This document shows positions 8,591 through 28,500 of a stretch of 59,718 nucleotides of DNA, one piece after another; the first letter of the stretch is position 1, and every line of letters starts with the position of its first letter. Both the position numbers and the translations under genes were made by a program. The stretch spans positions 1-59,718 of the forward strand of contig CAJJAH010000006.1 in NCBI GenBank assembly GCA_905182255.1. Direction: 5' to 3'. The DNA comes from Cryomorphaceae bacterium BACL11 MAG-121001-bin54 (GTDB lineage: Bacteria; Bacteroidota; Bacteroidia; Flavobacteriales; BACL11). The notes beneath the pieces are model-generated. The model saw only the letters and a program-made list of their open reading frames with translations, was not told the origin of the DNA and made no database searches.

Positions 8591-11200
8591 TTATTTTAAC
8601 ACCCTTTTTACTTCAACCTCTTCGTATCCTTCAATTATATCACCTACTTTAAGATCATTGAAGTTTTCTATTGACATTCCACATTCAAATCCTTTTTTCA
8701 CTTCAGTAACATCATCCTTGAAACGTTTTAATGATGATAATTTACCAGTGTAAACTACAACACCATCACGAATAAGCCTTACACCTGTTTGTCTAGTTAA
8801 AGAACCGTCTAGCACCATACATCCTGCTATAGTACCAATCTTAGATATCTTAAAGGTTTCTCTAATTTCAATATTACAAATAATTTTTTCTTCAACATCA
8901 GGTCTAAGCATACCCTCCATTGCTAATTTCAATTCTTCAATTGCTTTATAAATTATAGAATACAATCTAATATCAATTTGTTCAGCTTCTGCTAATTTAC
9001 GTGCTTTTAATGACGGCCTAACTTGGAAACCAATAATAATTGCATCTGAAGCTGCTGCTAGCATAACATCTGATTCTGAAATTTGACCTACTGCTTTTTG
9101 AATAATATTTACTTTTATTTCCTCTGTAGAAAGTTGCTGCAAAGTATCAGATAATGCTTCAATAGAACCATCAACATCTCCTTTAATAATAACATTAATT
9201 TCTTGAAAACCACCTAAAGCAATTCTTCTTCCAATTTCATCAAGAGTTAAGTGTTTCTGCGTTCTTACACTTTGCTCTCTTTGTAATTGAGCCCTTCTTG
9301 AGGCAATTTTTTTTGCTTCTTGCTCACTTTCTATAACATGAAATTCATCTCCTGCTGTTGGCGCACCATCTAAACCTAATAATACTACTGGAGTTGAAGG
9401 TCCTGCATTATTTCGTGTTTCACCCCTTTCATCTAGTAAGGCTTTAACTTTACCTGAGTAAGAACCTGCTAAAACATAATCCCCAACATTTAATGTTCCC
9501 TTCTGAACTAGCAATGTAGATAAGTATCCCTTACCTTTATCTAGTGATGCTTCAATAACTGTTCCCTGGGCATTTCTATTTGGATTTGCTTTTAGGTCAA
9601 GCATCTCAGCTTCTAAAATAATTTTTTCTAAAATTTCTGGAACGCCAGTCCCAACCTTAGCTGATATATCCTGAGATTGATATTTACCCCCCCAATCTTC
9701 CACAAGAAGGTTCATTTCCGCTAATTCGCCTTTGATTTTTTCAGTATCTGCAGTTGGTCGGTCAATTTTGTTAATTGCAAAGATAATAGGAACACCTGCC
9801 GCTTGAGCATGACTAATTGCTTCCTTTGTCTGAGGCATCACTCTGTCATCAGCTGCTACTACAACCACTACAATATCAGTAACTTTTGCTCCCCTAGCCC
9901 GCATTGCGGTAAAGGCCTCATGTCCTGGTGTGTCTAAGAACGAAATTTGCTTTCCATTTTTTAATGACACTTCATAAGCCCCAATATGTTGTGTAATCCC
10001 ACCTGACTCTCCAGCAATTACATTTGTTTCTCTGATGTAGTCCATCAATGAAGTTTTTCCATGATCAACATGCCCCATAATTGTTATAATTGGAGCACGT
10101 GTTTCAAGTTGATCCTCAGCATCTACAATCTCTTCGATAGATTCTTGTACATCAGCCCCAACAAATTCAACCTTAAAACCAAAATCCTCTACTAACATTT
10201 GGATTGTTTCGGCATCTAACCTTTGATTCATACTCACCATCATCCCAAGACCCATACAAGTGGTTACAATTTCAGTAACCGCAACATCCATTAAAACTGC
10301 TAACTCGCTTGCCGTAGCAAACTCAGCAATCTTTATTACTTGATCGCCAGCAGCTCTTTCTTGATTTTCAACATCCGCAACATCTTTATGTGCTTGTCTT
10401 TTATCTTTTCTATTTCTTACAGATGATTTTTTACCCCCTCTTCCTTGTAATTTTGCTAATGTTTCTCGTACCCTTTTTTGAGCCTCTTCTGGGGATATTT
10501 CTATTGTTTTTTTAGTAGGTTTTACTACTTTTTTAAACTTCTTAGGGTCAACTTTAGTTTTTACAATTCTCAGCCTTTTCTTTTTCTCAGCCTTTTCTGG
10601 TTTCTTAAATTGAGTTAAATCTATTGTTTTACCAGTTACCTTAACGCCTCTTAGCTTGCCAGCACTAGCCTTAATAATTCCTTCAGCTATCTTAGGCTCT
10701 TCTATTTTTTCTAACTGTTCTTCAGTGTCTTTGACAACTTTAATGGATTCGATTTTTGTTTTAAGTGGTTTCTTTGGACTAATATCAACTTTACCAACAA
10801 CTTTCAATTCCTTTTTTGTTGTTTTTGCTGTGATTATCTCATCTTTAGAATGAGCTTTTTCTTGTTCTGCAATATCAGCTTCTTTCTTTAATTTGATTTC
10901 AAGCTGAACTTTTATCTTTTCTTCAGCTACTTTTTGAGCTTTTTCCTCAGCTTCTTGCTGTTTAATAATTTCTTCAGCTTTAGCTAATTCTTTTTCTTTG
11001 GACAATAACTCAGCTGATAATTTTGCTTTCTTTTCAGAATCAAATTCTCCTAACAAATCCATGTAGATCTCATGAGACACTTTTGTATTGGGCTTTAAAT
11101 CCTCAATACCTTTTGCTTCAAGAAATGAATATATTCTGTCAATACTGACATTGAATTCCTTAACTAACTTGTTTAACCTTACGCTTTTTTTATCTGACAT
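8591..11200 (-). CDS. infB: Translation initiation factor IF-2
   Basis: 869-aa GTPase that positions initiator tRNA on the 30S subunit. It starts with an IF2_N domain ([24 protein letters not shown]), followed by a long lysine/glutamate-rich linker to about residue 280 and a second N-terminal domain. The G domain has GHVDHGKT (about 372-379), DTPGHEAFT and NKID. The beta-barrel domains II and IV and domain III follow. Length and order are normal for Bacteroidota. Third gene of rimP-nusA-infB, 19 bases after nusA. Confidence 0.98.
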
Positions 11201-11219: not shown

Positions 11220-12461
11220 TTAATCTTCAAACTCTGAACTTAAGACGCTCAGAATACTTTCTACAGTTTCAATTTCTAGATCTGTTCTTAATACTAGGTC
11301 TTTTGCTGAAATATCTAGTACACTTTTTGCTGTATCGCAACCAATCGCTTTCAAAGCGTCAATTACCCATGATTCTAGTTCGTCTGTAAACTCATCAATA
11401 GCGACATCGTCCTCAAAACTACCTGCATCTCTATATACATCAATATCATATCCTGATAATTTCCCAGCTAAATTAATATTATGTCCTCCTCTACCAATAG
11501 CTAATGAAACTTGGTCGGCAGCCATAAACACACTTGCTCTCATTTTTTCATCATCCAACTTTACAGAAGTAATTTTTGCTGGGTTCAACGCTCTTGTAAT
11601 TAACAATTGAGAATTCTCAGTAAAATTTACTACATCAATATTTTCATTCTTTAACTCACGAACAATACTATGAATTCTTGAACCCTTCATTCCTACACAT
11701 GCACCTACAGGATCAATTCTATCATCATACGATTCTACAGCTACCTTGGCTCTTTCTCCAGGAATTCTAACTACATTTTTAATAGTTATTATACCATCAA
11801 ATACTTCAGGAACCTCTTGCTCAAATAAACGCTCAATAAATTCTGGTGCAATACGAGAAAGAACAATATTTGCTTTATTATTTTTAAGACTTACTTCCTT
11901 GATTACTGCTCTTACAGACTCGCCTTTTTTAAAGTAATCTCTAGGTATCTGCTCTAATTTTGGTAAAGACAAATCGTTACCTTCATCATCTTGCAATAAG
12001 ATTTCATTTCTCCATATTTGGTAAACTTCACCATGAATAATTTCACCAATTCTCTCTTCATAACGCTTCATTAACTCATCTCTATGCTGGTCAGCTATAC
12101 GAGCCATTAAATGCTGACGGATAGAAAGCACTTGCCTTCTTCCAAATTCAGATTCAAAGCTTACTTGCTCGGAAACTTCTTCTCCTACCTCATAATCATC
12201 TTCAATTTTCAAAGCATCAGTCAAAGAAATTTGTGCAATAGGAATTTCAACTTCCCCATCTTCAACAACTTCCCTGTTTCTCCAAATTTCTAAATCTCCT
12301 TTATCAACATTAATAATAACATTAAAATTACCTTGTTCATCATACTTTTTACTCAGCACCGTTTTAAAAACATCTTCTAAGATGTTCATCATAGTTTCAC
12401 GATCAATATTCTTAACCTCTTTAAACTCTGAAAACGATTCAATTAAATTTTCTACTTCCAT
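11220..12461 (-). CDS. nusA: Transcription termination/antitermination factor NusA
   Basis: 413 aa. RNA polymerase-binding factor controlling pausing, termination and antitermination. The N-terminal polymerase-binding domain is followed by an S1 domain (from about 135, GEIIHGEVYQIWRNEILLQDDEG), KH1 with GMKGSRIHSIVREL, and KH2 with SLAIGRGGHNINLAGKLSG. It is shorter than the 495-aa E. coli protein, lacking the second C-terminal acidic repeat, as is common outside gammaproteobacteria. It lies between rimP and infB with 5 and 19 bases between genes. The operon leader contains a hairpin that could be a NusA-responsive attenuator (see 12932-12960). Confidence 0.97.
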   Translation of the reverse strand: MEVENLIESFSEFKEVKNIDRETMMNILEDVFKTVLSKKYDEQGNFNVIINVDKGDLEIWRNREVVEDGEVEIPIAQISLTDALKIEDDYEVGEEVSEQVSFESEFGRRQVLSIRQHLMARIADQHRDELMKRYEERIGEIIHGEVYQIWRNEILLQDDEGNDLSLPKLEQIPRDYFKKGESVRAVIKEVSLKNNKANIVLSRIAPEFIERLFEQEVPEVFDGIITIKNVVRIPGERAKVAVESYDDRIDPVGACVGMKGSRIHSIVRELKNENIDVVNFTENSQLLITRALNPAKITSVKLDDEKMRASVFMAADQVSLAIGRGGHNINLAGKLSGYDIDVYRDAGSFEDDVAIDEFTDELESWVIDALKAIGCDTAKSVLDISAKDLVLRTDLEIETVESILSVLSSEFED

Positions 12462-12466
12462 TCTGT

Positions 12467-12922
12467 TTATTTAAAATTTATTTTAAGTTTAGTCTCTTTT
12501 ATTTCTTCTTTTGGAATACTTATTTCTTCCAGTATATAATCTTTCCTATTTCCTTTTTTCTTTTTTAATACCTCTAGCAACAGTGATTCATTGTAGGAAA
12601 TAATAACACCTGTTTTTCTCTTACCATTAGTTAATAAAACACCAACCTCTTTTCCGATATATTTCTGATATTGTTCATCAACCATGAACGGATTATCTAG
12701 CCCTGCAGAACAAACAGTAAGCTCATAATCTTCTGACTCTCTATCAAAATGTTCCTCAATATATTTACTTATTAGCAAACAATGTTCTACCTGAACTCCT
12801 TCCATTCTATCAAAAAATAAAGTAATAACATTTGCTGTATTCACTTTTACATCTACTAAGAAGCCACCTTGTTCTTTAATCTTTGGCTCGGCTACTTTTA
12901 TTATTTCTTCTTTTGATATCAT
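12467..12922 (-). CDS. rimP: Ribosome maturation factor RimP
   Basis: 151-aa protein needed for 30S subunit maturation. The family pattern includes an N-terminal KH-like half (VAEPKIKEQGGFLVDVKVN), EHCLLISKYIEEHFD and the conserved YELTVCSAGLDNPF, followed by the C-terminal SH3-like half (YIGKEVGVLLTNGKRKTGVI). First gene of the conserved rimP-nusA-infB operon. The ATG at 12922 has no clear Shine-Dalgarno sequence, as is usual in this phylum. Confidence 0.95.
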   Translation of the reverse strand: MISKEEIIKVAEPKIKEQGGFLVDVKVNTANVITLFFDRMEGVQVEHCLLISKYIEEHFDRESEDYELTVCSAGLDNPFMVDEQYQKYIGKEVGVLLTNGKRKTGVIISYNESLLLEVLKKKKGNRKDYILEEISIPKEEIKETKLKINFK

Positions 12923-13021: not shown

Positions 13022-16000
13022 TTACTGCAAGACAATTCTTTTACTAACAAATGAGTTCCTAGTCCTAATTTGAATCATAAAAATACCTCTAGGGGAATTA
13101 GAAAAATCAATTCGCTTAGTATACTCACCTATGAAGTCTTGTTTATCTTCCTGAAACACTAATTTACCAAATGCATCAACTATGGTAATTTCAAAATTAT
13201 CTAATTTTTCAGCCATAAAGCTAATATTAAATAGTCCTCTTGTTGGATTCGGGTAGATATTTAAATATTCACCTAGATCAATATCCCCTGCAGTAATCCT
13301 GTTTCCTGCTAATGTTGTAACAGTATCCCATCCAGTCCAAGCAGAATTATAATTAACTGAAGGATCGCAGATTGTTCTAATTCTAAAGCGATAATTCTCA
13401 TTCGAGATTAATCCTGTTAATGTGAGATTATTTAACCCAGGTGTGATAGTAGTATCAATTCTGGTATTCCATGGTGCACCGACTACTAAATACATAAGCC
13501 TGTAAGTAAATGCAGCTGGATTTGAATCCCAACTCAATACAGCTGAAGATGTTGTAATAGAATCAATAATTATATTAGTTGGTGGAATACATCCATTAAC
13601 TGTATTAAAGACCTCAAAACTTGAAAATGCAGAATTATTATTGCCACTACCATCACAAACACTCTTCACTTGCCAATGATAAGCTGTCCCAGACAATAAA
13701 GAAGATAAATCAAGTGAATTAGTAGTCACTGTAGTGTAAGTAAATGTTCCCCAACCTTGATTTACTTGCTTGTATCTAACTATATATTCCAAAGCTCCAG
13801 GAGATACATCCCAACCTAAAGTAGCATCAGTTAAACCAATTGCTGTAGTATTCGTATTTGTTGGAGTAGTACATACCGTTAAAGTAGCAAAAGACTGAGT
13901 AGAACTCCATGCTGATACTGAACTATTATCAGAAGAACAAACTGATTGTATCTCCCACTCATAAGTAGTAGATGAAGTTAAGTTTAATTTCTCTTTTGAA
14001 GTACCATATAAATAATTCAATGCAATACTCCAAGAAGAAGTTCCCTGAACTCTCATACGTATATTGTAATGATGAGCATCCGTAACTGCTGACCAGTTCA
14101 TAGTCGCTCTATCTAACTGAATGTTAGAGACAGATAAACCTGTTGGAGGCGATAATGAAATAACATTAATAGTTGTTGCAGATGAAGTTGCTATACAACC
14201 AGCTGGATTAGTAACTGTTAAACTATAAGTACCCGCTACAGAAGTTGTATAAGTAGAAGAAGTCGCACCAGAAATAGCACCACTTAAATCATTCCACTGG
14301 TAAATACTACCCGATGGTGACCAACTAGTCATACTCAAAGTTACACTCTCACCCAAACATATAGGAGAACCTCCTGTTGGATTCTGAACTGTAACACTAA
14401 AGGCTGAAGCTGGCGTAGTAATAACATAAGTAGCAGTATATTGACATGTATTGTTGTCAGTAACTGTTACACTATAAGTACCTGCAGCTAAAGAAGTAAG
14501 ATCTTCACTGGTAGAACCATCACTCCATAAATAAGAGAATGAACCACTACCACCAATTACTGATAAATCAAGAGATCCATCACTACCACCAAAACAGCCA
14601 ACATTAGTCTGAATAATATTTAATGAAGCATTACAAGAACCTGTATTAAAGACCTCAAAACTTGAAAATGCAGAATTATTATTGCCACTACCATCACAAA
14701 CACTCTTCACTTGCCAATGATAAGCTGTCCCAGACAATAAAGAAGATAAATCAAGTGAATTAGTAGTCACTGTAGTGTAAGTAAATGTTCCCCAACCTTG
14801 ATTTACTTGCTTGTATCTAACTATATATTCCAAAGCTCCAGGGGATACATCCCAACCTAAAGTAGCATCAGTTAAACCAATTGCTGTAGTAGTCGTGTTT
14901 AATGGAGTAGTACAAGGAATTGTTGTTGTAAAGCTCTCTGTAGAAGACCATGCTGATACTGAACTATTATCAGAAGAACAAACTGATTGTATCTCCCACT
15001 CATAAGTAGTAGATGAAGTTAAGTTTAATTTCTCTTTTGAAGTACCATATAAATAATTCAATGCAATACTCCAAGAAGAAGTTCCCTGAACTCTCATACG
15101 TATATTGTAATGATGAGCATCCGTAACTGCTGACCAGTTCATAGTCGCTCTATCTAACTGAATGTTAGAGACAGATAAACCTGTTGGAGGCGATAATGAA
15201 ATAACATTAATAGTTGTTGCAGATGAAGTTGCTATACAACCAGCTGGATTAGTAACTGTTAAACTATAAGTACCCGCTACAGAAGTTGTATAAGTAGAAG
15301 AAGTCGCACCAGAAATAGCACCACTTAAATCATTCCACTGGTAAATACTACCCGATGGTGACCAACTAGTCATACTCAAAGTTACACTCTCACCCAAACA
15401 TATAGGAGAACCTCCTGTTGGATTCTGAACTGTAACACTAAAGGCTGAAGCTGGCGTAGTAATAACATAAGTAGCAGTATATTGACATGTATTGTTGTCA
15501 GTAACTGTTACACTATAAGTACCTGCAGCTAAAGAAGTAAGATCTTCACTGGTAGAACCATCACTCCATAAATAAGAGAATGAACCACTACCACCAATTA
15601 CTGATAAATCAAGAGATCCATCACTACCACCAAAACAGCCAACATTAGTCTGAATAATATTTAATGAAGCATTACAAGAACCTGTATTAAAGACCTCAAA
15701 ACTTGAAAATGCAGAATTATTATTGCCACTACCATCACAAACACTCTTCACTTGCCAATGATAAGCTGTCCCAGACAATAAAGAAGATAAATCAAGTGAA
15801 TTAGTAGTCACTATAGTAGAAGTAAATGTTCCCCAACCTTGATTTACTTGCTTGTATCTAACTATATATTCCAAAGCTCCAGGGGATACATCCCAACCTA
15901 AAGTAGCATCAGTTAAACCAATTGCTGTAGTAGTCGTGTTTAATGGAGTAGTACAAGGAATTGTTGTTGTAAAGCTCTCTGTAGAAGACCATGCTGATAC

Positions 16001-19000
16001 TGAACTATTATCAGAAGAACAAACTGATTGTATCTCCCACTCATAAGTAGTAGATGAAGTTAAATTAAATTTCTCTTTTGAAGTACCATATAAATAATTC
16101 AATGCAATACTCCAAGAAGAAGTTCCCTGAACTCTCATACGTATATTGTAATGATGAGCATCCGTAACTGCTGACCAGTTCATAGTCGCTCTATCTAACT
16201 GAATGTTAGAGACAGATAAACCTGTTGGAGGCGATAATGAAATAACATTAATAGTTGTTGCAGATGAAGTTGCTATACAACCAGCTGGATTAGTAACTGT
16301 TAAACTATAAGTACCCGCTACAGAAGTTGTATAAGTAGAAGAAGTCGCACCAGAAATAGCACCACTTAAATCATTCCACTGGTAAATACTACCCGATGGT
16401 GACCAACTAGTCATACTCAAAGTTACACTCTCACCCAAACATATAGGAGAACCTCCTGTTGGATTTTGAGTTGTAACACTAAAGGCTGAAGCTGGCGTAG
16501 TAATAACATAAGTAGCAGTATATTGACATGTATTGTTGTCAGTAACTGTTACACTATAAGTACCTGCAGCTAAAGAAGTAAGATCTTCACTGGTAGAACC
16601 ATCACTCCATAAATAAGAGAATGAACCACTACCACCAATTACTGATAAATCAAGAGATCCATCACTACCACCAAAACAGCCAACATTAGTCTGAATAATA
16701 TTTAATGAAGCATTACAAGAACCTGTATTAAAGACCTCAAAACTTGAAAATGCAGAATTATTATTGCCACTACCATCACAAACACTCTTCACTTGCCAAT
16801 GATAAGCTGTCCCAGACAATAAAGAAGATAAATCAAGTGAATTAGTAGTCACTGTAGTGTAAGTAAATGTTCCCCAACCTTGATTTACTTGCTTGTATCT
16901 AACTATATATTCCAAAGCTCCAGGGGATACATCCCAACCTAAAGTAGCATCAGTTAAACCAATTGCTGTAGTAGTCGTGTTTAATGGAGTAGTACAAGGA
17001 ATTGTTGTTGTAAAGCTCTCTGTAGAAGACCATGCTGATACTGAACTATTATCAGAAGAACAAACTGATTGTATCTCCCACTCATAAGTAGTAGATGAAG
17101 TTAAGTTTAATTTCTCTTTTGAAGTACCATATAAATAATTCAATGCAATACTCCAAGAAGAAGTTCCCTGAACTCTCATACGTATATTATAATGATCTGC
17201 ATCTGTAACTGCTGACCAGTTCATAGTCGCTCTATCTAACTGAATGTTAGAGACAGATAAACCTGTTGGAGGCGATAATGAAATAACATTAATAGTTGTT
17301 GCAGATGAAGTTGCTATACAACCAGCTGGATTAGTAACTGTTAAACTATAAGTACCCGCTACAGAAGTTGTATAAGTAGAAGAAGTCGCACCAGAAATAG
17401 CACCACTTAAATCATTCCACTGGTAAATACTACCCGATGGTGACCAACTAGTCATACTCAAAGTTACACTCTCACCCAAACATATAGGAGAACCTCCTGT
17501 TGGATTCTGAACTGTAACACTAAAGGCTGAAGCTGGCGTAGTAATAACATAAGTAGCAGTATATTGACATGTATTGTTGTCAGTAACTGTTACACTATAA
17601 GTACCTGCAGCTAAAGAAGTAAGATCTTCACTGGTAGAACCATCACTCCATAAATAAGAGAATGAACCACTACCACCAATTACTGATAAATCAAGAGATC
17701 CATCACTACCACCAAAACAGCCAACATTAGTCTGAATAATATTTAATGAAGCATTACAAGAACCTGTATTAAAGACCTCAAAACTTGAAAATGCAGAATT
17801 ATTATTGCCACTACCATCACAAACACTCTTCACTTGCCAATGATAAGCTGTCCCTGGTAATAAAGAAGATAAAACAAGTGAATTAGTATTTATAGTATCA
17901 TAAGTAAATGTTCCCCAACCTTGATTTACTTGCTTGTATCTAACTATATATTCCAAAGCTCCAGGGGATACATCCCAACCTAAAGTAGCATCAGTTAAAC
18001 CAATTGCTGTAGTAGTCGTGTTTAATGGAGTAGTACAAGGAATTGTTGTTGTAAAGCTCTCTGTAGAAGACCATGCTGATACTGAACTATTATCAGAAGA
18101 ACAAACTGATTGTATCTCCCACTCATAAGTAGTAGATGAAGTTAAGTTTAATTTCTCTTTTGAAGTACCATATAAATAATTCAATGCAATACTCCAAGAA
18201 GAAGTTCCCTGAACTCTCATACGTATATTGTAATGATGAGCATCCGTAACTGCTGACCAGTTCATAGTCGCTCTATCTAACTGAATGTTAGAGACAGATA
18301 AACCTGTTGGAGGCGATAATGAAATAACATTAATAGTTGTTGCAGATGAAGTTGCTATACAACCAGCTGGATTAGTAACTGTTAAACTATAAGTACCCGC
18401 TACAGAAGTTGTATAAGTAGAAGAAGTCGCACCAGAAATAGCACCACTTAAATCATTCCACTGGTAAATACTACCCGATGGTGACCAACTAGTCATACTC
18501 AAAGTTACACTCTCACCCAAACATATAGGAGAACCTCCTGTTGGATTCTGAACTGTAACACTAAAATCAGGTAATATTGTTAGAATAGTTGTCACTGTTG
18601 AGTCACAACCTAAATTAGTAGTATAGATATCAAAATATGTACCACTTGAAGAATAAGTATTTCCATTTATAGAATATGAATACCCAAAACAAATAGTTTG
18701 ATTATTGACAGAAAAAGCAGATGGATTAATAATAAGATTTAATGTCGCTGTACTATCACAACCATTTGAATTAGTAGTTGTAAAAGTGTAAACTCCACTA
18801 GCTGTATAAGTCTGTCCATTCCAATTGTAATCATCACACTCTGTAACATCTGTGGATGATAAAGTAGATGGATTTATAGTAAGATTTAATGTCGCTACAG
18901 AATCACAACCATTTGAATTAGTAGTTGTAAAAGTGTAAACTCCACTAGCTATATAAGTCTGTCCATTCCAAGTATAATCATCACACTCTGTAACATCTGT

Positions 19001-22000
19001 GGATGATAAAGTAGATGGATTTATAGTAAGATTTAATGTCGCTACAGAATCACAACCATTTGAATTAGTAGTTGTAAAAGTGTAAACTCCACTAGCTGTA
19101 TAAGTCTGTCCATTCCAATTGTAATCATCACAAGAAGTTGCAGCTGATGTACTAGTTGTTGATGGATTTACAGTAAGATTTAATGTTGCTACAGAATCAC
19201 AACCATTTGAATTAGTAGTTGTAAAAGTGTAAACTCCACTAGCTATATAAGTCTGTCCATTCCAAGTATAATCATCACACTCTGTAACATCTGTGGATGA
19301 TAAAGTAGATGGATTTATAGTAAGATTTAATGTCGCTACAGAATCACAACCATTTGAATTGGTAGTTGTAAAAGTGTAAACTCCACTAGCTGTATAAGTC
19401 TGTCCATTCCAAGTATAATCATCACACTCTGTAACATCTGTGGATGAAACGGTTGGGTAAAAACAACTACTATCATTTACAGTAGCTGTAGAATCATAGT
19501 TACATGCATTAGAATCCGTACAACCCAAGACAATAATATAAGAACATGAACCATCATCAATTGTAGCCATAGGATCATAATTAACAGCAGCAGAATCTGT
19601 ACAACCAAGATAAATACAAGAACCATCACTAGTATTTACATTAGGATTATAATTACTTGCTGCAGGGTCATTACATCCATATGTAAATGGAACACATGAT
19701 CCGTCATCAGTATTTACTGATGAGTTATAATTAAATGCAGAAATATCAGTACAACCATAAATAAATGGTATACACGATCCGTCGTCACAAACTGCGTTAG
19801 CATCATAGTTAAATTGAGTAGGGTCAGTACATCCATCAGGTAAATTAATTGTAAGATTTAATGTTGCTACAGAATCACAACCATTTGAATTAGTAGTTGT
19901 AAAAGTGTAAACTCCACTAGCTGTATAAGTCTGTCCATTCCAATTGTAATCATCACAAGAAGTTGCAGCTGATGTACTAGTTGTTGATGGATTTACAGTA
20001 AGATTTAATGTTGCTACAGAATCACAACCATTTGAATTAGTAGTTGTAAAAGTGTAAACTCCACTAGCTATATAAGTCTGTCCATTCCAAGTATAATCAT
20101 CACACTCTGTAACATCTGTGGATGATAAAGTAGATGGATTTATAGTAAGATTTAATGTCGCTACAGAATCACAACCATTTGAATTAGTAGTTGTAAAAGT
20201 GTAAACTCCACTAGCTATATAAGTCTGTCCATTCCAATTGTAATCATCACACTCTGTAACATCTGTGGATGATAAAGTAGATGGATTTATAGTAAGATTT
20301 AATGTCGCTACAGAATCACAACCATTTGAATTAGTAGTTGTAAAAGTGTAAACTCCACTAGCTGTATAAGTCTGTCCATTCCAAGTATAATCATCACACT
20401 CTGTAACATCTGTGGATGATAAAGTAGATGGATTTATAGTAAGATTTAATGTCGCTACAGAATCACAACCATTTGAATTAGTAGTTGTAAAAGTGTAAAC
20501 TCCACTAGCCGTATAAGTCTGTCCATTCCAAGTATAATCATCACACTCTGTAACATCTGTGGATGATAAAGTAGATGGATTAATTGTAAGATTTAATGTT
20601 GCTACAGAATCACAACCATTTGAATTAGTAGTTGTAAAAGTGTAAACTCCACTAGCTGTATAAGTCTGTCCATTCCAATTGTAATCATCACAAGAAGTTG
20701 CAGCTGATGTACTAGTTGTTGATGGATTTACAGTAAGATTTAATGTTGCTACAGAATCACAACCATTTGAATTAGTAGTTGTAAAAGTGTAAACTCCACT
20801 AGCCGTATAAGTCTGTCCATTCCAAGTATAATCATCACACTCTGTAACATCTGTGGATGATAAAGTAGATGGATTTATAGTAAGATTTAATGTTGCTACA
20901 GAATCACAACCATTTGAATTAGTAGTTGTAAAAGTGTAAACTCCACTAGCTGTATAAGTCTGTCCATTCCAATTGTAATCATCACAAGAAGTTGCAGCTG
21001 ATGTACTAGTTGTTGATGGATTTACAGTAAGATTTAGTGTTGCTATAGAATCACAACCATTTGAATTAGTAGTTGTAAAAGTGTAAACTCCACTAGCTGT
21101 ATAAGTCTGTCCATTCCAAGTATAATCATCACACTCTGTAACATCTGTGGATGATAAAGTAGATGGATTTATAGTAAGATTTAATGTCGCTACAGAATCA
21201 CAACCATTTGAATTAGTAGTTGTAAAAGTGTAAACTCCACTAGCTGTATAAGTCTGTCCATTCCAAGTATAATCATCACACTCTGTAACATCTGTGGATG
21301 ATAAAGTAGATGGATTTATAGTAAGATTTAATGTCGCTACAGAATCACAACCATTTGAATTAGTAGTTGTAAAAGTGTAAACTCCACTAGCTGTATAAGT
21401 CTGTCCATTCCAAGTATAATCATCACACTCTGTAACATCTGTGGATGATAAAGTAGATGGATTTATAGTAAGATTTAATGTCGCTACAGAATCACAACCA
21501 TTTGAATTAGTAGTTGTAAAAGTGTAAACTCCACTAGCTATATAAGTCTGTCCATTCCAAGTATAATCATCACACTCTGTAACATCTGTGGATGATAAAG
21601 TAGATGGATTTATAGTAAGATTTAATGTCGCTACAGAATCACAACCATTTGAATTAGTAGTTGTAAAAGTGTAAACTCCACTAGCTGTATAAGTCTGTCC
21701 ATTCCAAGTATAATCATCACACTCTGTAACATCTGTGGATGATAAAGTAGATGGATTTATAGTAAGATTTAATGTCGCTACAGAATCACAACCATTTGAA
21801 TTAGTAGTTGTAAAAGTGTAAACTCCACTAGCTGTATAAGTCTGTCCATTCCAAGTATAATCATCACACTCTGTAACATCTGTGGATGATAAAGTAGATG
21901 GATTTATAGTAAGATTTAATGTCGCTACAGAATCACAACCATTTGAATTAGTAGTTGTAAAAGTGTAAACTCCACTAGCTGTATAAGTCTGTCCATTCCA

Positions 22001-24886
22001 AGTATAATCATCACACTCTGTAACATCTGTGGATGATAAAGTAGATGGATTTATAGTAAGATTTAATGTCGCTACAGAATCACAACCATTTGAATTAGTA
22101 GTTGTAAAAGTGTAAACTCCACTAGCTGTATAAGTCTGTCCATTCCAAGTATAATCATCACACTCTGTAGCTGCAGTTGATGATGTAGTTGGAATACATA
22201 AACAAACAATAGAAAACGGAAATGCTTGAACATCAATATTTCCTAACTCAGAATCAACCGTTGAAGTAACTGTTAAAGATCCGGCAGTAGGATTAATAAA
22301 TACATTAAGAAAGTTAATAGTACTTGAGTTGCCACTAGTAAAATTATTCCCATCAGCAATAGAAGTAGCTGATATACTAACTCCTGGATTTAAATTGGTA
22401 ATAGTAAAAGTACCTAAAGCTAATCCAGTAGCTATATCCACAGATTCAATAACTGCCTGAGTAGAACCAACTGTTGAAACAACTACCAAAGTAGTATTAA
22501 CTGTATTAAAGCCTGCACCAGCAATACTACTAGCTGAACCAATAACATCTCCAGAAGACATATTTGAAATATCAAAAGAACCTGCATCTGATGTAAATAA
22601 TGAAGTCAATATATCTACCTCACCAGCATCCTGACTTAAGATAACAGTTAAATCTGTTAAACTATCACAATCAGTGTTGGAAAGTGAAATTGAAACAGTT
22701 GGAGAAAAATCTAAGACTACACAGACAATAGAAAACGGAAATGCTTGAACATCAATATTTCCTAACTCAGAATCAACCGTTGAAGTAACTGTTAAAGATC
22801 CGGCAGTAGGATTAATAAATACATTAAGAAAGTTAATAGTACTTGAGTTGCCACTAGTAAAATTATTCCCATCAGCAATAGAAGTAGCTGATATACTAAC
22901 TCCTGGATTTAAATTGGTAATAGTAAAAGTACCTAAAGCTAATCCAGTAGCTATATCCACAGATTCAATAACTGCCTGAGTAGAACCAACTGTTGAAACA
23001 ACTACCAAAGTAGTATTAACTGTATTAAAGCCTGCACCAGCAATACTACTAGCTGAACCAATAACATCTCCAGAAGACATATTTGAAATATCAAAAGAAC
23101 CTGCATCTGATGTAAATAATGAAGTCAATATATCTACCTCACCAGCATCCTGACTTAAGATAACAGTTAAATCTGTTAAACTATCACAATCAGTGTTGGA
23201 AAGTGAAATTGAAACAGTTGGAGAAAAATCTAAGACTACACAGACAATAGAAAACGGAAATGCTTGAACATCAATATTTCCTAACTCAGAATCAACCGTT
23301 GAAGTAACTGTTAAAGATCCGGCAGTAGGATTAATAAATACATTAAGAAAGTTAATAGTACTTGAGTTGCCACTAGTAAAATTATTCCCATCAGCAATAG
23401 AAGTAGCTGATATACTAACTCCTGGATTTAAATTGGTAATAGTAAAAGTACCTGAAGCTAATCCAGTAGCTATATCCACAGATTCAATAACTGCCTGAGT
23501 AGAACCAACTGTTGAAACAACTACCAAAGTAGTATTAACTGTATTAAAGCCTGCACCAGCAATACTACTAGCTGAACCAATAACATCTCCAGAAGACATA
23601 TTTGAAATATCAAAAGAACCTGCATCTGATGTAAATAATGAAGTCAATATATCTACCTCACCAGCATCCTGACTTAAGATAACAGTTAAATCTGTTAAAC
23701 TATCACAATCAGTGTTGGAAAGTGAAATTGAAACAGTTGGAGAAAAATCTAAGACTACACAGACAATAGAAAACGGAAATGCTTGAACATCAATATTTCC
23801 TAACTCAGAATCAACCGTTGAAGTAACTGTTAAAGATCCGGCAGTAGGATTAATAAATACATTAAGAAAGTTAATAGTACTTGAGTTGCCACTAGTAAAA
23901 TTATTCCCATCAGCAATAGAAGTAGCTGATATACTAACTCCTGGATTTAAATTGGTAATAGTAAAAGTACCTAAAGCTAATCCAGTAGCTATATCCACAG
24001 ATTCAATAACTGCCTGAGTAGAACCAACTGTTGAAACAACTACCAAAGTAGTATTAACTGTATTAAAGCCTGCACCAGCAATACTACTAGCTGAACCAAT
24101 AACATCTCCAGAAGACATATTTGAAATATCAAAAGAACCTGCATCTGATGTAAATAATGAAGTCAATATATCTACCTCACCAGCATCCTGACTTAAGATA
24201 ACAGTTAAATCTGTTAAACTATCACAATCAGTGTTGGAAAGTGAAATTGAAACAGTTGGAGAAAAATCTAAGACTACACAGACAATAGAAAACGGAAATG
24301 CTTGAACATCAATATTTCCTAACTCAGAATCAACCGTTGAAGTAACTGTTAAAGATCCGGCAGTAGGATTAATAAATACATTAAGAAAGTTAATAGTACT
24401 TGAGTTGCCACTAGTAAAATTATTCCCATCAGCAATAGAAGTAGCTGATATACTAACTCCTGGATTTAAATTGGTAATAGTAAAAGTACCTAAAGCTAAT
24501 CCAGTAGCTATATCCACAGATTCAATAACTGCCTGAGTAGAACCAACTGTTGAAACAACTACCAAAGTAGTATTAACTGTATTAAAGCCTGCACCAGCCA
24601 TACTAATAGCTGAACCAATAACATCTCCAGAAGACATACTTGAAATATCAAAAGAACCTGCATCTGATGTAAATAATGAAGTCAATATATCTACCTCACC
24701 AGCATCCTGACTTAAGATAACAGTTAAATCTGTTAAACTATCACAATCAGTGTTGGAAAGTGAAATTGAAACAGTTGGAGAAAAATCATTAAGATTTTGA
24801 GCAATAATTTGATTAGGATTTAATAAAAAACCTAAACAAAAAATTAACATTAAATTTGATAAAATTTGGGTAAAATTTCTTTTCAT
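13022..24886 (-). CDS. giant secreted repeat protein with T9SS type A sorting domain
   Basis: 3954 aa. Residues 1-30 are a signal peptide (IFCLGFLLNPNQIIAQ). Residues about 34-898 are five copies of a 173-aa repeat. About 899-1681 are 16 copies of a 49-aa repeat with paired cysteines (ECDDYTWNGQTYTASG...NSNGCDS). About 1682-1812 are five GCTD..NY..DDGSC cysteine/aspartate repeats. About 1813-2057 are five more 49-aa repeats plus a degenerate one. About 2106-3759 are five 347-aa composite units (Ig-like, two FnIII, and SprB-like in the first four). A last FnIII follows, and the end (from NIYPNPTRGLFNISF to the final SKRIVLQ) is a type A CTD that directs secretion by T9SS and surface attachment. 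A surface adhesin or matrix protein is inferred. No catalytic domain was found. Confidence 0.92.
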   Translation of the reverse strand: MKRNFTQILSNLMLIFCLGFLLNPNQIIAQNLNDFSPTVSISLSNTDCDSLTDLTVILSQDAGEVDILTSLFTSDAGSFDISSMSSGDVIGSAISMAGAGFNTVNTTLVVVSTVGSTQAVIESVDIATGLALGTFTITNLNPGVSISATSIADGNNFTSGNSSTINFLNVFINPTAGSLTVTSTVDSELGNIDVQAFPFSIVCVVLDFSPTVSISLSNTDCDSLTDLTVILSQDAGEVDILTSLFTSDAGSFDISNMSSGDVIGSASSIAGAGFNTVNTTLVVVSTVGSTQAVIESVDIATGLALGTFTITNLNPGVSISATSIADGNNFTSGNSSTINFLNVFINPTAGSLTVTSTVDSELGNIDVQAFPFSIVCVVLDFSPTVSISLSNTDCDSLTDLTVILSQDAGEVDILTSLFTSDAGSFDISNMSSGDVIGSASSIAGAGFNTVNTTLVVVSTVGSTQAVIESVDIATGLASGTFTITNLNPGVSISATSIADGNNFTSGNSSTINFLNVFINPTAGSLTVTSTVDSELGNIDVQAFPFSIVCVVLDFSPTVSISLSNTDCDSLTDLTVILSQDAGEVDILTSLFTSDAGSFDISNMSSGDVIGSASSIAGAGFNTVNTTLVVVSTVGSTQAVIESVDIATGLALGTFTITNLNPGVSISATSIADGNNFTSGNSSTINFLNVFINPTAGSLTVTSTVDSELGNIDVQAFPFSIVCVVLDFSPTVSISLSNTDCDSLTDLTVILSQDAGEVDILTSLFTSDAGSFDISNMSSGDVIGSASSIAGAGFNTVNTTLVVVSTVGSTQAVIESVDIATGLALGTFTITNLNPGVSISATSIADGNNFTSGNSSTINFLNVFINPTAGSLTVTSTVDSELGNIDVQAFPFSIVCLCIPTTSSTAATECDDYTWNGQTYTASGVYTFTTTNSNGCDSVATLNLTINPSTLSSTDVTECDDYTWNGQTYTASGVYTFTTTNSNGCDSVATLNLTINPSTLSSTDVTECDDYTWNGQTYTASGVYTFTTTNSNGCDSVATLNLTINPSTLSSTDVTECDDYTWNGQTYTASGVYTFTTTNSNGCDSVATLNLTINPSTLSSTDVTECDDYTWNGQTYIASGVYTFTTTNSNGCDSVATLNLTINPSTLSSTDVTECDDYTWNGQTYTASGVYTFTTTNSNGCDSVATLNLTINPSTLSSTDVTECDDYTWNGQTYTASGVYTFTTTNSNGCDSVATLNLTINPSTLSSTDVTECDDYTWNGQTYTASGVYTFTTTNSNGCDSIATLNLTVNPSTTSTSAATSCDDYNWNGQTYTASGVYTFTTTNSNGCDSVATLNLTINPSTLSSTDVTECDDYTWNGQTYTASGVYTFTTTNSNGCDSVATLNLTVNPSTTSTSAATSCDDYNWNGQTYTASGVYTFTTTNSNGCDSVATLNLTINPSTLSSTDVTECDDYTWNGQTYTASGVYTFTTTNSNGCDSVATLNLTINPSTLSSTDVTECDDYTWNGQTYTASGVYTFTTTNSNGCDSVATLNLTINPSTLSSTDVTECDDYNWNGQTYIASGVYTFTTTNSNGCDSVATLNLTINPSTLSSTDVTECDDYTWNGQTYIASGVYTFTTTNSNGCDSVATLNLTVNPSTTSTSAATSCDDYNWNGQTYTASGVYTFTTTNSNGCDSVATLNLTINLPDGCTDPTQFNYDANAVCDDGSCIPFIYGCTDISAFNYNSSVNTDDGSCVPFTYGCNDPAASNYNPNVNTSDGSCIYLGCTDSAAVNYDPMATIDDGSCSYIIVLGCTDSNACNYDSTATVNDSSCFYPTVSSTDVTECDDYTWNGQTYTASGVYTFTTTNSNGCDSVATLNLTINPSTLSSTDVTECDDYTWNGQTYIASGVYTFTTTNSNGCDSVATLNLTVNPSTTSTSAATSCDDYNWNGQTYTASGVYTFTTTNSNGCDSVATLNLTINPSTLSSTDVTECDDYTWNGQTYIASGVYTFTTTNSNGCDSVATLNLTINPSTLSSTDVTECDDYNWNGQTYTASGVYTFTTTNSNGCDSTATLNLIINPSAFSVNNQTICFGYSYSINGNTYSSSGTYFDIYTTNLGCDSTVTTILTILPDFSVTVQNPTGGSPICLGESVTLSMTSWSPSGSIYQWNDLSGAISGATSSTYTTSVAGTYSLTVTNPAGCIATSSATTINVISLSPPTGLSVSNIQLDRATMNWSAVTDAHHYNIRMRVQGTSSWSIALNYLYGTSKEKLNLTSSTTYEWEIQSVCSSDNSSVSAWSSTESFTTTIPCTTPLNTTTTAIGLTDATLGWDVSPGALEYIVRYKQVNQGWGTFTYDTINTNSLVLSSLLPGTAYHWQVKSVCDGSGNNNSAFSSFEVFNTGSCNASLNIIQTNVGCFGGSDGSLDLSVIGGSGSFSYLWSDGSTSEDLTSLAAGTYSVTVTDNNTCQYTATYVITTPASAFSVTVQNPTGGSPICLGESVTLSMTSWSPSGSIYQWNDLSGAISGATSSTYTTSVAGTYSLTVTNPAGCIATSSATTINVISLSPPTGLSVSNIQLDRATMNWSAVTDADHYNIRMRVQGTSSWSIALNYLYGTSKEKLNLTSSTTYEWEIQSVCSSDNSSVSAWSSTESFTTTIPCTTPLNTTTTAIGLTDATLGWDVSPGALEYIVRYKQVNQGWGTFTYTTVTTNSLDLSSLLSGTAYHWQVKSVCDGSGNNNSAFSSFEVFNTGSCNASLNIIQTNVGCFGGSDGSLDLSVIGGSGSFSYLWSDGSTSEDLTSLAAGTYSVTVTDNNTCQYTATYVITTPASAFSVTTQNPTGGSPICLGESVTLSMTSWSPSGSIYQWNDLSGAISGATSSTYTTSVAGTYSLTVTNPAGCIATSSATTINVISLSPPTGLSVSNIQLDRATMNWSAVTDAHHYNIRMRVQGTSSWSIALNYLYGTSKEKFNLTSSTTYEWEIQSVCSSDNSSVSAWSSTESFTTTIPCTTPLNTTTTAIGLTDATLGWDVSPGALEYIVRYKQVNQGWGTFTSTIVTTNSLDLSSLLSGTAYHWQVKSVCDGSGNNNSAFSSFEVFNTGSCNASLNIIQTNVGCFGGSDGSLDLSVIGGSGSFSYLWSDGSTSEDLTSLAAGTYSVTVTDNNTCQYTATYVITTPASAFSVTVQNPTGGSPICLGESVTLSMTSWSPSGSIYQWNDLSGAISGATSSTYTTSVAGTYSLTVTNPAGCIATSSATTINVISLSPPTGLSVSNIQLDRATMNWSAVTDAHHYNIRMRVQGTSSWSIALNYLYGTSKEKLNLTSSTTYEWEIQSVCSSDNSSVSAWSSTESFTTTIPCTTPLNTTTTAIGLTDATLGWDVSPGALEYIVRYKQVNQGWGTFTYTTVTTNSLDLSSLLSGTAYHWQVKSVCDGSGNNNSAFSSFEVFNTGSCNASLNIIQTNVGCFGGSDGSLDLSVIGGSGSFSYLWSDGSTSEDLTSLAAGTYSVTVTDNNTCQYTATYVITTPASAFSVTVQNPTGGSPICLGESVTLSMTSWSPSGSIYQWNDLSGAISGATSSTYTTSVAGTYSLTVTNPAGCIATSSATTINVISLSPPTGLSVSNIQLDRATMNWSAVTDAHHYNIRMRVQGTSSWSIALNYLYGTSKEKLNLTSSTTYEWEIQSVCSSDNSSVSAWSSTQSFATLTVCTTPTNTNTTAIGLTDATLGWDVSPGALEYIVRYKQVNQGWGTFTYTTVTTNSLDLSSLLSGTAYHWQVKSVCDGSGNNNSAFSSFEVFNTVNGCIPPTNIIIDSITTSSAVLSWDSNPAAFTYRLMYLVVGAPWNTRIDTTITPGLNNLTLTGLISNENYRFRIRTICDPSVNYNSAWTGWDTVTTLAGNRITAGDIDLGEYLNIYPNPTRGLFNISFMAEKLDNFEITIVDAFGKLVFQEDKQDFIGEYTKRIDFSNSPRGIFMIQIRTRNSFVSKRIVLQ
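13610..18569 (-). repeat. five 1041-bp tandem repeats (Ig-FnIII-FnIII-SprB units)
   Basis: Period 1041 bp (347 aa), nearly identical over long stretches including synonymous sites; unit starts near 18566, 17525, 16484, 15443 and 14402. Each unit encodes an Ig-like part (NPTGGSPICLGESVTL), FnIII-1 (PPTGLSVSNIQLDRATMNW), FnIII-2 (LTDATLGWDVSPGALEYIVRY) and a SprB-like part (VGCFGGSDGSLDLSV). The fifth unit lacks the SprB part and has an altered FnIII junction (QSFATLTVCTTPTN). Confidence 0.95.
18715..19449 (-). repeat. five 147-bp tandem repeats (second block)
   Basis: Same 49-aa unit as the block at 19845-22191, separated from it by the GCTD region. The next 49-aa stretch downstream (GYSYSINGNTYSSSGTY) is a diverged sixth copy. 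Subtypes in N-to-C order: ECDDYTW/TAS, ECDDYTW/IAS, SCDDYNW/TAS, ECDDYTW/IAS, ECDDYNW/TAS. Confidence 0.93.
19450..19843 (-). repeat. five GCTD...DDGSC cysteine-rich repeats
   Basis: Encodes five units of about 25 aa of the form GCTDxxAxNYxxxAxxDDGSC, a repeat common in secreted Bacteroidota proteins. The Asp clusters suggest calcium binding and the cysteine pair a disulfide. Unlike the flanking repeats, these copies differ from each other. The fifth has DSSC in place of DGSC. Confidence 0.88.
19845..22191 (-). repeat. sixteen 147-bp tandem repeats (first block)
   Basis: Exact 147-bp period (49 aa); the conserved WNGQTY-encoding site recurs near 22135, 21988, 21841 and so on down to 19930, 16 times. 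Copies differ at few positions: ECDD versus SCDD, YTW versus YNW, TAS versus IAS, and the PSTLSSTDV versus PSTTSTSAAT linkers. Confidence 0.95.
22193..24787 (-). repeat. five 519-bp tandem repeats
   Basis: Exact 519-bp period (173 aa); the junction motif recurs at 22721, 23240, 23759 and 24278. Each copy encodes DFSPTVSISLSNTDCDSL through AFPFSIVC. Differences are few: the first copy has SSMSSG and AISMAG where the others have SNMSSG and ASSIAG, and one copy has GLASGT for GLALGT. Confidence 0.95.
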
Positions 24887-25363
24887 AATATTTTTTTTAA
24901 TACTTGTTTTGATACTTGTTTTGATACTTTTTTTATAGCATTATTTGTCGTAATAACAATATAATTTGCGAATATACAAAATTATTTAATTATCGAGGGT
25001 GTATTACTCAGCATTCTAATAATATTTTAAAAAAATTCTCGTCATTTTTAAGCTGCAAACTCTTAAAATAAATCAATATCGAAATAATGTTCTGAAAAAA
25101 CCTATAGCTAAAATTTTTATCATACGCTAAACAAAGCAGATGCAAATAAAACTACACTTTAAAACTAATAGATAGACATTTATAAAACCTAAAAACAATA
25201 GTATTAAAGAGTTGAAGAATTGTAATTATAACTTAATACAAGAAAATAAATTCTGATAATTAGAACTCCTAAAGATGAAATAATGAAAAAAATAGGTGAT
25301 TTACAATGAATATTTACTGAAGTATTTACGCATACATTAGTTGTTGGTCCAATTTGTAAAAAG
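24887..25363. other. intergenic region upstream of the giant gene
   Basis: 477 bases without a gene. Next to the giant gene start there is a 12-bp direct repeat (24901-24912 and 24913-24924, then a partial third), which would lie in its 5' untranslated region. No convincing TAnnTTTG promoter with a matching -33 was found here for the giant gene. The rest is very AT-rich and shows no ORF, RNA or repeat that I can support. A 10-bp block (CCAATTTGTA, about 25349-25358) reappears inverted on the other side of the tRNA-Gln gene. Confidence 0.6.
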
Positions 25364-25579: not shown

Positions 25580-28500
25580 ATGAATCAATTCAAAAAACTA
25601 AATAATATTATTGGATGGAGCGTATTTTTAATCGCCTCATTTGTTTATCTATCCACTATTGAACAAACCGTAAGTTTTTGGGATTGTGGCGAGTATATTG
25701 CAACGGCATATAAATTACAAGTTGGACATCCTCCTGGAGCTCCATTATTTCAGTTATTTGGCAGAATTTTTACGCTTTTTGCAGCTCAAGGAACTTCTGA
25801 AGTAGCAGTTGCTATCAATATTCTATCCGCATTGTGTTCCTCATTTACTATTCTATTTCTCTTTTGGACGATTACAGCCTTTGGAAGAAAGATGTTTTTT
25901 AAAGACAATAATTATGAAACGGGTAAAATATATGCTGTTTTAGGAAGTGGGCTTGTAGGAGCTTTAGCTTACACTTTTTCTGATTCTTTTTGGTTCTCGG
26001 CTGTTGAGGGAGAAGTTTATGCCATGTCATCCTTTTTTACAGCAATAACCTTTTGGTGCATTATGAAATGGGAGCAGGAAGCTGACCAACCTTTAGCGAG
26101 CAGATGGCTTGTTTTGATTGCTTACTTAATAGGGCTTTCAGTTGGGGTGCATTTATTATCCTTACTTACAATCCCTGCAATGGGAATGATTTACTATTAC
26201 AAAAAATACCAATATACTAAGTCAGGAGCAATAAAAGCATTCGTCATTTCAATGATGATATTAGGCTTAGTTCAGGCTGTTATTATTCCAGGTGCCGTAA
26301 GTTTAATTTCTACTTTTGAGTTGTTTTTTGTAAATACAATAGGTTTGCCATTTAATTCCGGAACTATTATTTATTTCCTTTCAGTGATAGTTGCTATTGC
26401 ATTCGGATTATCTTACACTAAGAAACACAATAAAGCAGTTTGGAATACAGTAATATTAGGAGTTATGATGTTACTAATAGGGTATTCATCATTCGCAATT
26501 TTAGTTGTCCGATCCAATGCAAATCCTCCTATTGACGAGAATAATCCTGAAGATGCAGTCGGACTTTTATCCTATTTAAAAAGAGAACAATATGGAAGCT
26601 GGCCGATCGTTTACGGGCAACATTTTAATGCAAAATTAGATAGTAAAAAACCATATTTAGATGGGAATCCTGTATATGCAAAAGATGAAAAGAAAGGGAA
26701 ATATGTTGTAATAGACAAGAGGAAAAATACACTTCCAAATTACAGCAAAAAAGATAAAATGTTTTTTCCAAGAATTTGGAGTAATACCCAAGCTAGACAT
26801 GCGGGAGGCTATGTAAGTTGGGCGGGTCTTAAAAACAAAGATGCAAAACCTACTTTTGGTCAAAACCTAACCTATTTTTTCAAATACCAAATTGGGTGGT
26901 CCTATATTCGTTATTTTATGTGGAATTTCACTGGAAGGCAGAATGATTTTATGAATATGGATGGAAATTCCTTAAAAGGAAACTGGGAAAGTGGAATAGG
27001 ATTTATTGATAATGCTAGATTAGGAACACCTTCAGCAGAAGTAGATGTGCCGGATTATTTAGGGAAAAATAAAGGTAAAAATCATTATTATTTTCTCCCT
27101 CTAATTTTAGGATTAATTGGAATGTTCTTCCACTTTAAACAGAACAATCAAGATGCCTTGACTGTTTTATTATTTTTCTTATTTACTGGAGTCTTAATTA
27201 TCATTTATTTAAACGTGGTACCATTTCAACCTAGAGAGAGGGATTATGCCTATGTAGGTTCTTTTTATGCCTTTGCAATCTGGATAGGAATGGGTGTTTT
27301 AGGAATCTATGATTTTTTAAGTAAAAGAATGAGTTCGTCTGCAAGTGCAGCTTCAGCCACTATTATAGCACTTATTATCCCAACAATAATGGCAGCTGAA
27401 AATTGGGATGATCATGACAGAAGTGGAAGGTTTACAGCTTTAGAGGTTGCAAAAAACTACCTCAACTCTTGTGATAAAAATGCTATATTATTTACAAATG
27501 GTGATAATGATACTTTCCCACTTTGGTATGCACAGGAAGTAGAGGGAATACGAACAGATATTAAAGTGGTTAATTTATCTTTGTTCAATACTCCTTGGTA
27601 TATTGATCAAATGAAAAGAGCATCTTATGATGCAGCTCCTATACCATCATCATTAGAACATGATGATTACAGGGCCGGAACAAGAGATTATACTCCAATA
27701 AATGAACGATTTAAAGATTATGTTGAAGTAAAAGATGTCGTAAATTTTATTAACAGTAAAAGTTCAAAAGCTAAGATCAATACTTCAGCAGGACTAAGAA
27801 GCTACTGCCCTACTAAAAAACTAAAGCTTTCGGTTAACAAAAAAAATGTAAAATCATTTATTCCTAAAGAATATCATGAGAAAATTGTAGATGAAATAAA
27901 ATTCAAATTAAAAGGAAATGGGCTTTATAAAAATAAATTAATGGTGCTGGATATTTTGGCTAACTTCAATTGGGAGCGCCCTATATATTTTGCTATTACT
28001 GTAGGAAGAGACAACTTTATGGGCTTAGAAAAATACTTTCAGTTAGAAGGTCTGGCATATAGACTTGTCCCGTATGTAGCTCAATCTCCTGATGGACAAA
28101 CAGGAGTTGTACATGCTGAAAAAATGTATGAAAGATTAGTTGAAAATTTTAAATGGGGAGGATTCAATAATCCTGATTTATATTTTGATGAAACCAATAC
28201 TAGAATGGTAATGAATTTCAGAAATAATTATTCCCGTTTAGCAGAAGCTTTATTGACTAAAGGTGACACTGCTAGGGCAATTGAAACATTAGATAAATGT
28301 ATGGCAGAATTTCCAAGAGATGTAGTTAACTTAAGTTATTTTTCATTACCAATTATTGACATCTATTACAAGTTAGGAGAAGATAAAAAAGCAAAAAAAG
28401 TACTAGCATTAATGATTGATGATTACTTAACTGAAATTAAATACTTAAAAGAGTTTGAAAGCGGAAGTGGGCTAAAGCAGAACATAGGAATAGCAGGGCA

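Follow-up and report, generated by a model that had tools for sequence, protein, structure and literature searches.

A giant, predicted T9SS-exported repeat protein of a marine Flavobacteriales bacterium: near-identical tandem arrays at a fixed locus and signs of exchange between species

The closest described class to the gene analysed here is that of the Periscope Proteins (SasG, Rib, Sgo_0707, CdrA and others), surface proteins that carry tandem folded domains of more than 50 amino acids that are more than 80% identical (PMC8201768, PMC9704523). Their repeats have Ig-like folds, their DNA identity favours intragenic recombination, and their copy number differs between genomes (PMC8201768, PMC9704523). 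Three further cases are relevant: SprB, the gliding adhesin of Flavobacterium johnsoniae, which is a T9SS type B substrate with a carrier, SprF (PMC12635249); Flavobacterium psychrophilum, in which genes for a gliding motility-associated repeat protein and LRR genes vary in repeat number, as resolved with long reads (PMC8400371); and MpAFP, the ice-binding adhesin of Marinomonas primoryensis, with about 120 copies of one 104-residue repeat (PMC4083281).

The window, the whole stretch of DNA that was analysed, comprises 59,718 nucleotides of contig CAJJAH010000006.1 of Cryomorphaceae bacterium BACL11 MAG-121001-bin54. This contig is C6 of the metagenome-assembled genome G000, which is partial (1.04 Mb, 7 contigs, 53% complete), and its haplotype is referred to as W. 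The features of the locus are as follows.

8591..11200, minus strand: infB (IF-2), conserved downstream neighbour (Pfam)
11220..12461, minus strand: nusA, conserved downstream neighbour and flank marker (Pfam, family search)
12467..12922, minus strand: rimP, conserved downstream neighbour (Pfam, synteny)
13022..24886, minus strand: giant repeat gene, single ORF of 3954 aa, T9SS type A cargo (ORF and translation, Pfam/NCBIfam tail)
13025..13258, minus strand: T9SS type A C-terminal sorting domain, aa 3877-3954 (PF18962, E 9.9e-20; TIGR04183, E 3.8e-8)
13364..13585, minus strand: terminal fn3 domain, single copy (PF00041, best stretch aa 3768-3841)
13568..18565, minus strand: block C, four full and one truncated copy of 1041 bp (347 aa), starting at aa 2108
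18695..19429, minus strand: block B sub-array 2, 5 x 147 bp (TRF)
19430..19843, minus strand: five diverged Cys-rich modules, GCTD..NY..DDGSC (translation)
19844..22165, minus strand: block B sub-array 1, 16 x 147 bp (49 aa, two Cys per unit), final unit shortened (TRF)
22193..24784, minus strand: block A, 5 x 519 bp (173 aa), Ig-like beta-sandwich (AF2 model)
24797..24886, minus strand: signal peptide, aa 1-30 (called by eye from the sequence)
25580..28675, plus strand: TMEM260-like membrane protein (PF11028), divergent upstream neighbour, family-wide (Pfam, family search)

Set against the Periscope Proteins, blocks A (173 amino acids, 97-100% identical) and C (347 amino acids, at least 97% identical over the four full copies) have repeats of the size and likeness that define the class, whereas the B units, at 49 amino acids, fall slightly below the length limit. 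The giant gene would thus join the class by its behaviour, with a function that we infer. Periscope genes change in repeat number at the strain level; the giant gene has equal numbers in the two haplotypes of one species that were compared, and different numbers in congeneric species. It departs from the class in its predicted export by the T9SS in Bacteroidota (the review text contains neither 'Bacteroid' nor 'type IX'), in its several arrays, each amplified separately and with evidence of array exchange between species, and in lacking an evident ligand domain at the N-terminus. In fold alone, the A unit is similar to collagen-binding and pilin domains. As with SprB, the protein is large, is predicted to be exported by the T9SS and contains SprB repeats, but its tail is of type A. 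Like the F. psychrophilum genes it shows repeat-number differences in a flavobacterial surface-related protein, although that case concerns other proteins and repeat kinds in cultured isolates of one species. With MpAFP it shares a very long array of near-identical Ig-like repeats in a marine bacterium (a cold-water one in the case of MpAFP); unlike MpAFP it has several repeat kinds and T9SS export, and no ice-binding domain was recognised in it.

The initial annotation had described a 3954-residue T9SS protein with no strand given, and the single minus-strand frame ending in a PF18962/TIGR04183 tail bears this out. The TIGR04183 match exceeds the curated cut-off, assigning the tail to type A, and together with the N-terminal signal peptide it gives the protein both marks of a type A cargo. 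The signal peptide is kept in orthologues, with an identical start in the congeneric genomes G007, G008 and G013. SprA is present in 11 of the 14 genomes of the genus; G000 itself, which is 53% complete, yielded none. Given its sorting domain and the presence of SprA in congeners, the product would be a C-terminally anchored surface protein, and it may act as an adhesin. A Pfam scan of the neighbouring genes found no carrier-like gene.

The copies of block A begin at amino acids 35, 208, 381, 554 and 727. The unit matched no Pfam family, and its AF2 model (pLDDT 91.7) is an Ig-like sandwich, with TTHA1873 (Z 9.9), YcnI (Z 9.6) and pilin and collagen-binding domains (Z 8-9) as the nearest solved folds in the PDB. 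These matches were dropped as a clue to function, as such Z values mean an Ig-like sandwich at the level of the fold only. The units of block B start at amino acids 908-1643 (16 units) and 1820-2016 (5 units), and a model of three of them, built without an alignment, reached a pLDDT of 48. A linker separates the second B sub-array from block C, each unit of which consists of an Ig_7-like domain (under the Pfam cut-off), two fn3 domains and an SprB repeat (PF13573, E 3.3e-11). Translation and Pfam revealed no recognisable adhesive or ligand domain N-terminal of block A, the repeats beginning straight after the signal peptide. Matches to ACT_5, DUF928, Proteasome_A_N and NCBIfam equivalogs were short, with no passing stretch or below cut-off, and were set aside as repeat-driven noise. 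A search of a plasmid collection with the giant gene gave no match.

Two further observations concern the surroundings of the gene and its A unit. A 12-bp tandem repeat (4.2 copies, 24886..24935) adjoins the start codon upstream, with one haplotype difference at 24918, and could change expression through spacing; G007 has a different, 15-bp repeat (2.6 copies) at the gene start (L022 5762-5800). A single diverged A-type domain lies elsewhere in the same genome (G000:C7 52662-53129) in a shorter ORF (430-450 aa) conserved in most genomes of the family; this domain may be the source of the array unit or a sister to it.

Within W the copies of each array are far more alike than chance would allow. 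In block A only 4 of 519 sites vary, all of them non-synonymous, and none of about 124 synonymous sites differs between copies (pS 0.000, the last few codons of copy 5 excluded). Many B units are identical and the others are mosaics of two linker types, in both sub-arrays. Copies 1-4 of block C differ at 4-17 of 801 bases and copy 5 at 22-33 of 801, its final ~240 bases being unrelated, so that it is a truncated copy; mean pS in block C is 0.037, with copy 5 the most diverged. For comparison, pS between sister species is 0.27-0.37 in the flanking genes (nusA 0.33, TMEM260-like gene 0.27). The blocks differ in age, C being visibly older than A.

The same MAG holds a second version of the locus. 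Positions 374760-416977 of contig C1 align to window positions 1-42217 at 99.88% identity (51 mismatches, one gap); the bin contains two strain haplotypes, whose contig ends overlap by 42 kb. In C1 the gene has an intact frame, the same length of 11865 bp and the same copy numbers (5/16+5/5). The two haplotypes differ at 18 positions within the gene, and in all 18 the C1 base is already found in a sibling copy at the same position; for 16 of them the W base, too, occurs in a sibling copy in one haplotype or both. The probability that a random change matches a sibling base is 0.063 and, with the differences counted as about nine independent events (three sites in A, four in B, one in C and a C tract), the agreement has p ~1.5e-11. 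At sites 146/179/186 of block A, W reads GTG in the first copy and AGT in the other four, where C1 reads GGG, GTG, GTG, GGG and AGG. In copy 4 of block C, a tract of three sites has been switched to the state of copy 3, or the reverse, between the haplotypes. This is the signature of conversion or exchange among copies, seen at 0.1% divergence with no net change in copy number, in a strain-level comparison of two haplotypes of one species.

These data bear on most of what had been proposed from the sequence at the outset. The repeats of 519, 147 and 1041 bp in 5, 16+5 and 5 copies are seen in both C6 and C1, with the qualification that block C has four full copies and a truncated one. The statement that copies differ little even at synonymous sites is exact for block A and only roughly true of block C. 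Recent amplification or gene conversion is upheld by the zero synonymous change in A and by the sibling-state haplotype differences. The expected variation of copy number between strains did not appear, the two haplotypes being equal, and what varies is the number in congeneric species.

In W, G007, G008 and G013, respectively, block A has 5, 5, 9 and 6 copies and block B has 21, 2, ~26 and 14. Block C has five copies in W, five in G007 and four in G008, and its unit is not recognisable as such in G013. G007 is a sister species, with a NusA protein 99% identical to that of W; in the centre of its gene a 78-bp Cys-rich unit is repeated about 31 times (translation, TRF), an amplification seen in G007 only, and this unit is the same kind of module as the five diverged GCTD..DDGSC modules of W. 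Different modules are amplified at one place in different species. This comparison within the genus comprises one haplotype pair and four arrays, all from metagenome assemblies. As assembled, the reading frames of the gene in G007 and G008 are broken. The break in G007 opens the 78-bp array (L022 8480-8630) in a stretch for which a simple homopolymer error does not account, and is either an assembly junction or a genuine disruption.

Homogenisation is seen in each of the three congeners compared: four of the five A and four of the five C copies of G007 are identical, as are five of the six A copies of G013 and A copies 1-6 of the nine in G008. Divergence is greatest in the last A copy, at 4 nt in G007, 13-15 nt in G008 and 47 nt in G013, which fits its place at the array edge. 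Among the 58 A units placed in a tree, those of genus g1 (W/C1, G007, G008 and G013) cluster by species, and those of genera g2 and g8 (G014/G037 and G020/G081, with four copies each) cluster by position, which places the locus in a state of fast turnover in the genus of W and in a static one in two other genera. A constant number of diverged copies, which the initial annotation had named as the outcome that would speak against its proposal, is therefore what G014/G037 and G020/G081 display, with four position-specific A copies, and is absent from the genus of W.

The site itself is conserved. The A unit was detected in 46 of 80 relatives, and the gene order TMEM260-like, repeat gene, rimP, nusA, infB is kept. 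In a survey of 52 species and 15 genera of the family, the TMEM260-like flank was found in 39 genomes, nusA as well in 30 of these, and both were joined on one contig in 11, nine of which hold a repeat gene between them. The interval from the TMEM260-like gene to nusA measures 13.1 kb in W and C1, 12.5 in G007, 14.7 in G008, 13.0 in G013 and 9.9 in G022, and 6.0, 5.8, 5.6 and 5.2 kb in G014, G037, G081 and G020. The two empty sites, in G033 (L068) and G040 (L069), are ~1 kb long, with rimP alone directly beside the TMEM260-like gene; G022, of the same genus, carries the repeat gene. The idea that the TMEM260-like neighbour glycosylates the giant protein found no support, since the O-glycosylation motif D[ST][AILVMT] occurs at 33 sites against 31.6 in shuffled sequences, which is no enrichment.

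The comparison of W, G007 and G008 adds a further element. Outside the arrays, dS between W and G007 ranges from 0.34 (TMEM260-like gene) through 0.39 (linker between B and C), 0.43 (nusA) and 0.44 (tail of the repeat gene) to 0.51 (rimP); in the arrays it is ~0.12 (A) and 0.10-0.12 (C). The pair G007 and G008 shows the opposite, with 0.64-0.67 for the arrays and 0.17 for the tail, and the block A of W is at a dS of 0.8-0.9 from those of both G008 and G013. Four-fold sites differ between W and G007 at 23 of 242 positions in the arrays against 146 of 559 elsewhere (p 3e-8). The numbers of sites at which W=G007, W=G008 and G007=G008 change from 150/17/17 on the array side to 16/19/47 on the tail side (chi-square p 6e-22), which places one putative junction.

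13600..13614 (~13607), no strand: approximate inter-species breakpoint at the edge of block C (site counts)

The excess of G007=G008 sites persists through rimP (17/10/36), and nusA is even (49/37/46). On the simplest reading of these counts, W, G007 and G008 would be mosaics formed by inter-species recombination, with a breakpoint at the array edge. The alternative that arrays evolve within genomes only, and that the mosaic stems from rate differences or retained ancestral variation, draws on the fact that just three species have comparable arrays and tails and that they are near equidistant in nusA. It does not explain readily why dS is low in the arrays and high in the tail for W-G007 and the opposite for G007-G008, nor the four-fold site difference and an abrupt switch at the array edge that reaches into rimP, and we regard it as unlikely. 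As a separate observation, dN between W and G007 in the arrays is ~0.06 and is not lowered in step with dS, giving a dN/dS of ~0.5 against ~0.15 in the tail, for which diversifying selection is one candidate cause.

A different objection is that reads of different copies were merged or mis-polished, so that the identity of copies is false or the haplotypes are shuffled. The locus does break assemblies, as had been predicted: both flanks are present and unjoined in 19 relatives, whose contigs mostly stop between a few hundred bases and a few kb from the flank, that is, in the gene or just before it, and the four complete versions of the gene in the genus come from assemblies of 2-8 contigs. The frame break of G007 at its 78-bp array, unlike a homopolymer error, and the fact that consensus calling could homogenise copies (the FRAM18 HiFi reads behind G007 were Illumina-corrected; PMC8254474) point the same way. 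Nevertheless, C6 and C1, which were separately assembled, concur on 5/16+5/5 copies and an intact frame, and the haplotypes differ in combinations of three linked sites and in a transferred C tract of three sites, which is more than a mere loss of variation. Near-identical arrays were obtained independently in G007, G008 and G013. The FRAM18 data set that gave G007 also gave G014 with its diverged four-copy array, so homogenisation is not an effect of the pipeline as such, and each array, at 2.3-5.2 kb, is shorter than the HiFi reads of that set (8.6-9.6 kb). An artefact thus seems improbable. The related suggestion that the real copy number is larger found no sign in its favour, C1 and C6 agreeing as far as assemblies can tell.

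As to function, the SprB repeat (PF13573) in the C unit of a T9SS cargo could indicate a gliding adhesin like SprB that is moved along the cell surface, instead of a fixed stalk of variable length. SprB-type repeats are common to many surface proteins, however. SprB itself is a type B substrate carried by SprF (PMC12635249), whereas the giant protein has a type A tail, and we doubt that it is a gliding adhesin. That ancient arrays were kept alike by purifying selection, with ordinary point mutation making the differences and no conversion, could draw on the somewhat older divergence of block C (mean pS 0.037), but is hardly credible given no synonymous difference among the A copies of W at a dS of 0.8-0.9 to G008 and G013, copies that cluster by species and haplotype changes that copy sibling states.

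We therefore favour the interpretation that the gene probably encodes a long, stalk-like surface protein with a T9SS type A anchor, whose arrays evolve by intragenomic recombination and in which segments are occasionally replaced from congeners at a fixed site. The recombination is suggested by the near-zero pS within the arrays, the clustering by species, the copying of sibling states, the changes in copy number and modules, and the mosaic breakpoint. Long near-identical repeats would serve as substrates for homologous recombination; gene conversion and unequal exchange would homogenise the copies and alter their number, and the repeats would also supply homology to incoming DNA of related species. 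The product would be exported by the T9SS and anchored by its C-terminus, with the arrays as its stalk, an extended rod to judge from the Ig-like fold of A. Stalk length and module make-up may in turn alter contact with surfaces, other cells, grazers or phages.

Perhaps, and we put this forward tentatively, the fixed site beside rimP-nusA-infB is a natural module-exchange locus in a family of small-genome marine Flavobacteriales. Species would trade array segments there, with breakpoints falling on array edges, and each genome would then homogenise and re-amplify what it received, so that every species has its own stalk while the anchor and flanks stay constant.

The locus allows the conversion of copies, the amplification of arrays and exchange between species to be distinguished, because the flanks are fixed and there are relatives with non-homogenised arrays. 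Short-read MAGs routinely lose the gene, so such surface proteins are likely to be undercounted in ocean genomics. The idea of a variable-length stalk, which comes mainly from pathogens, is here extended to uncultured marine bacteria with small genomes, in which a surface stalk seems to have been rebuilt differently in each species while its site has remained constant.
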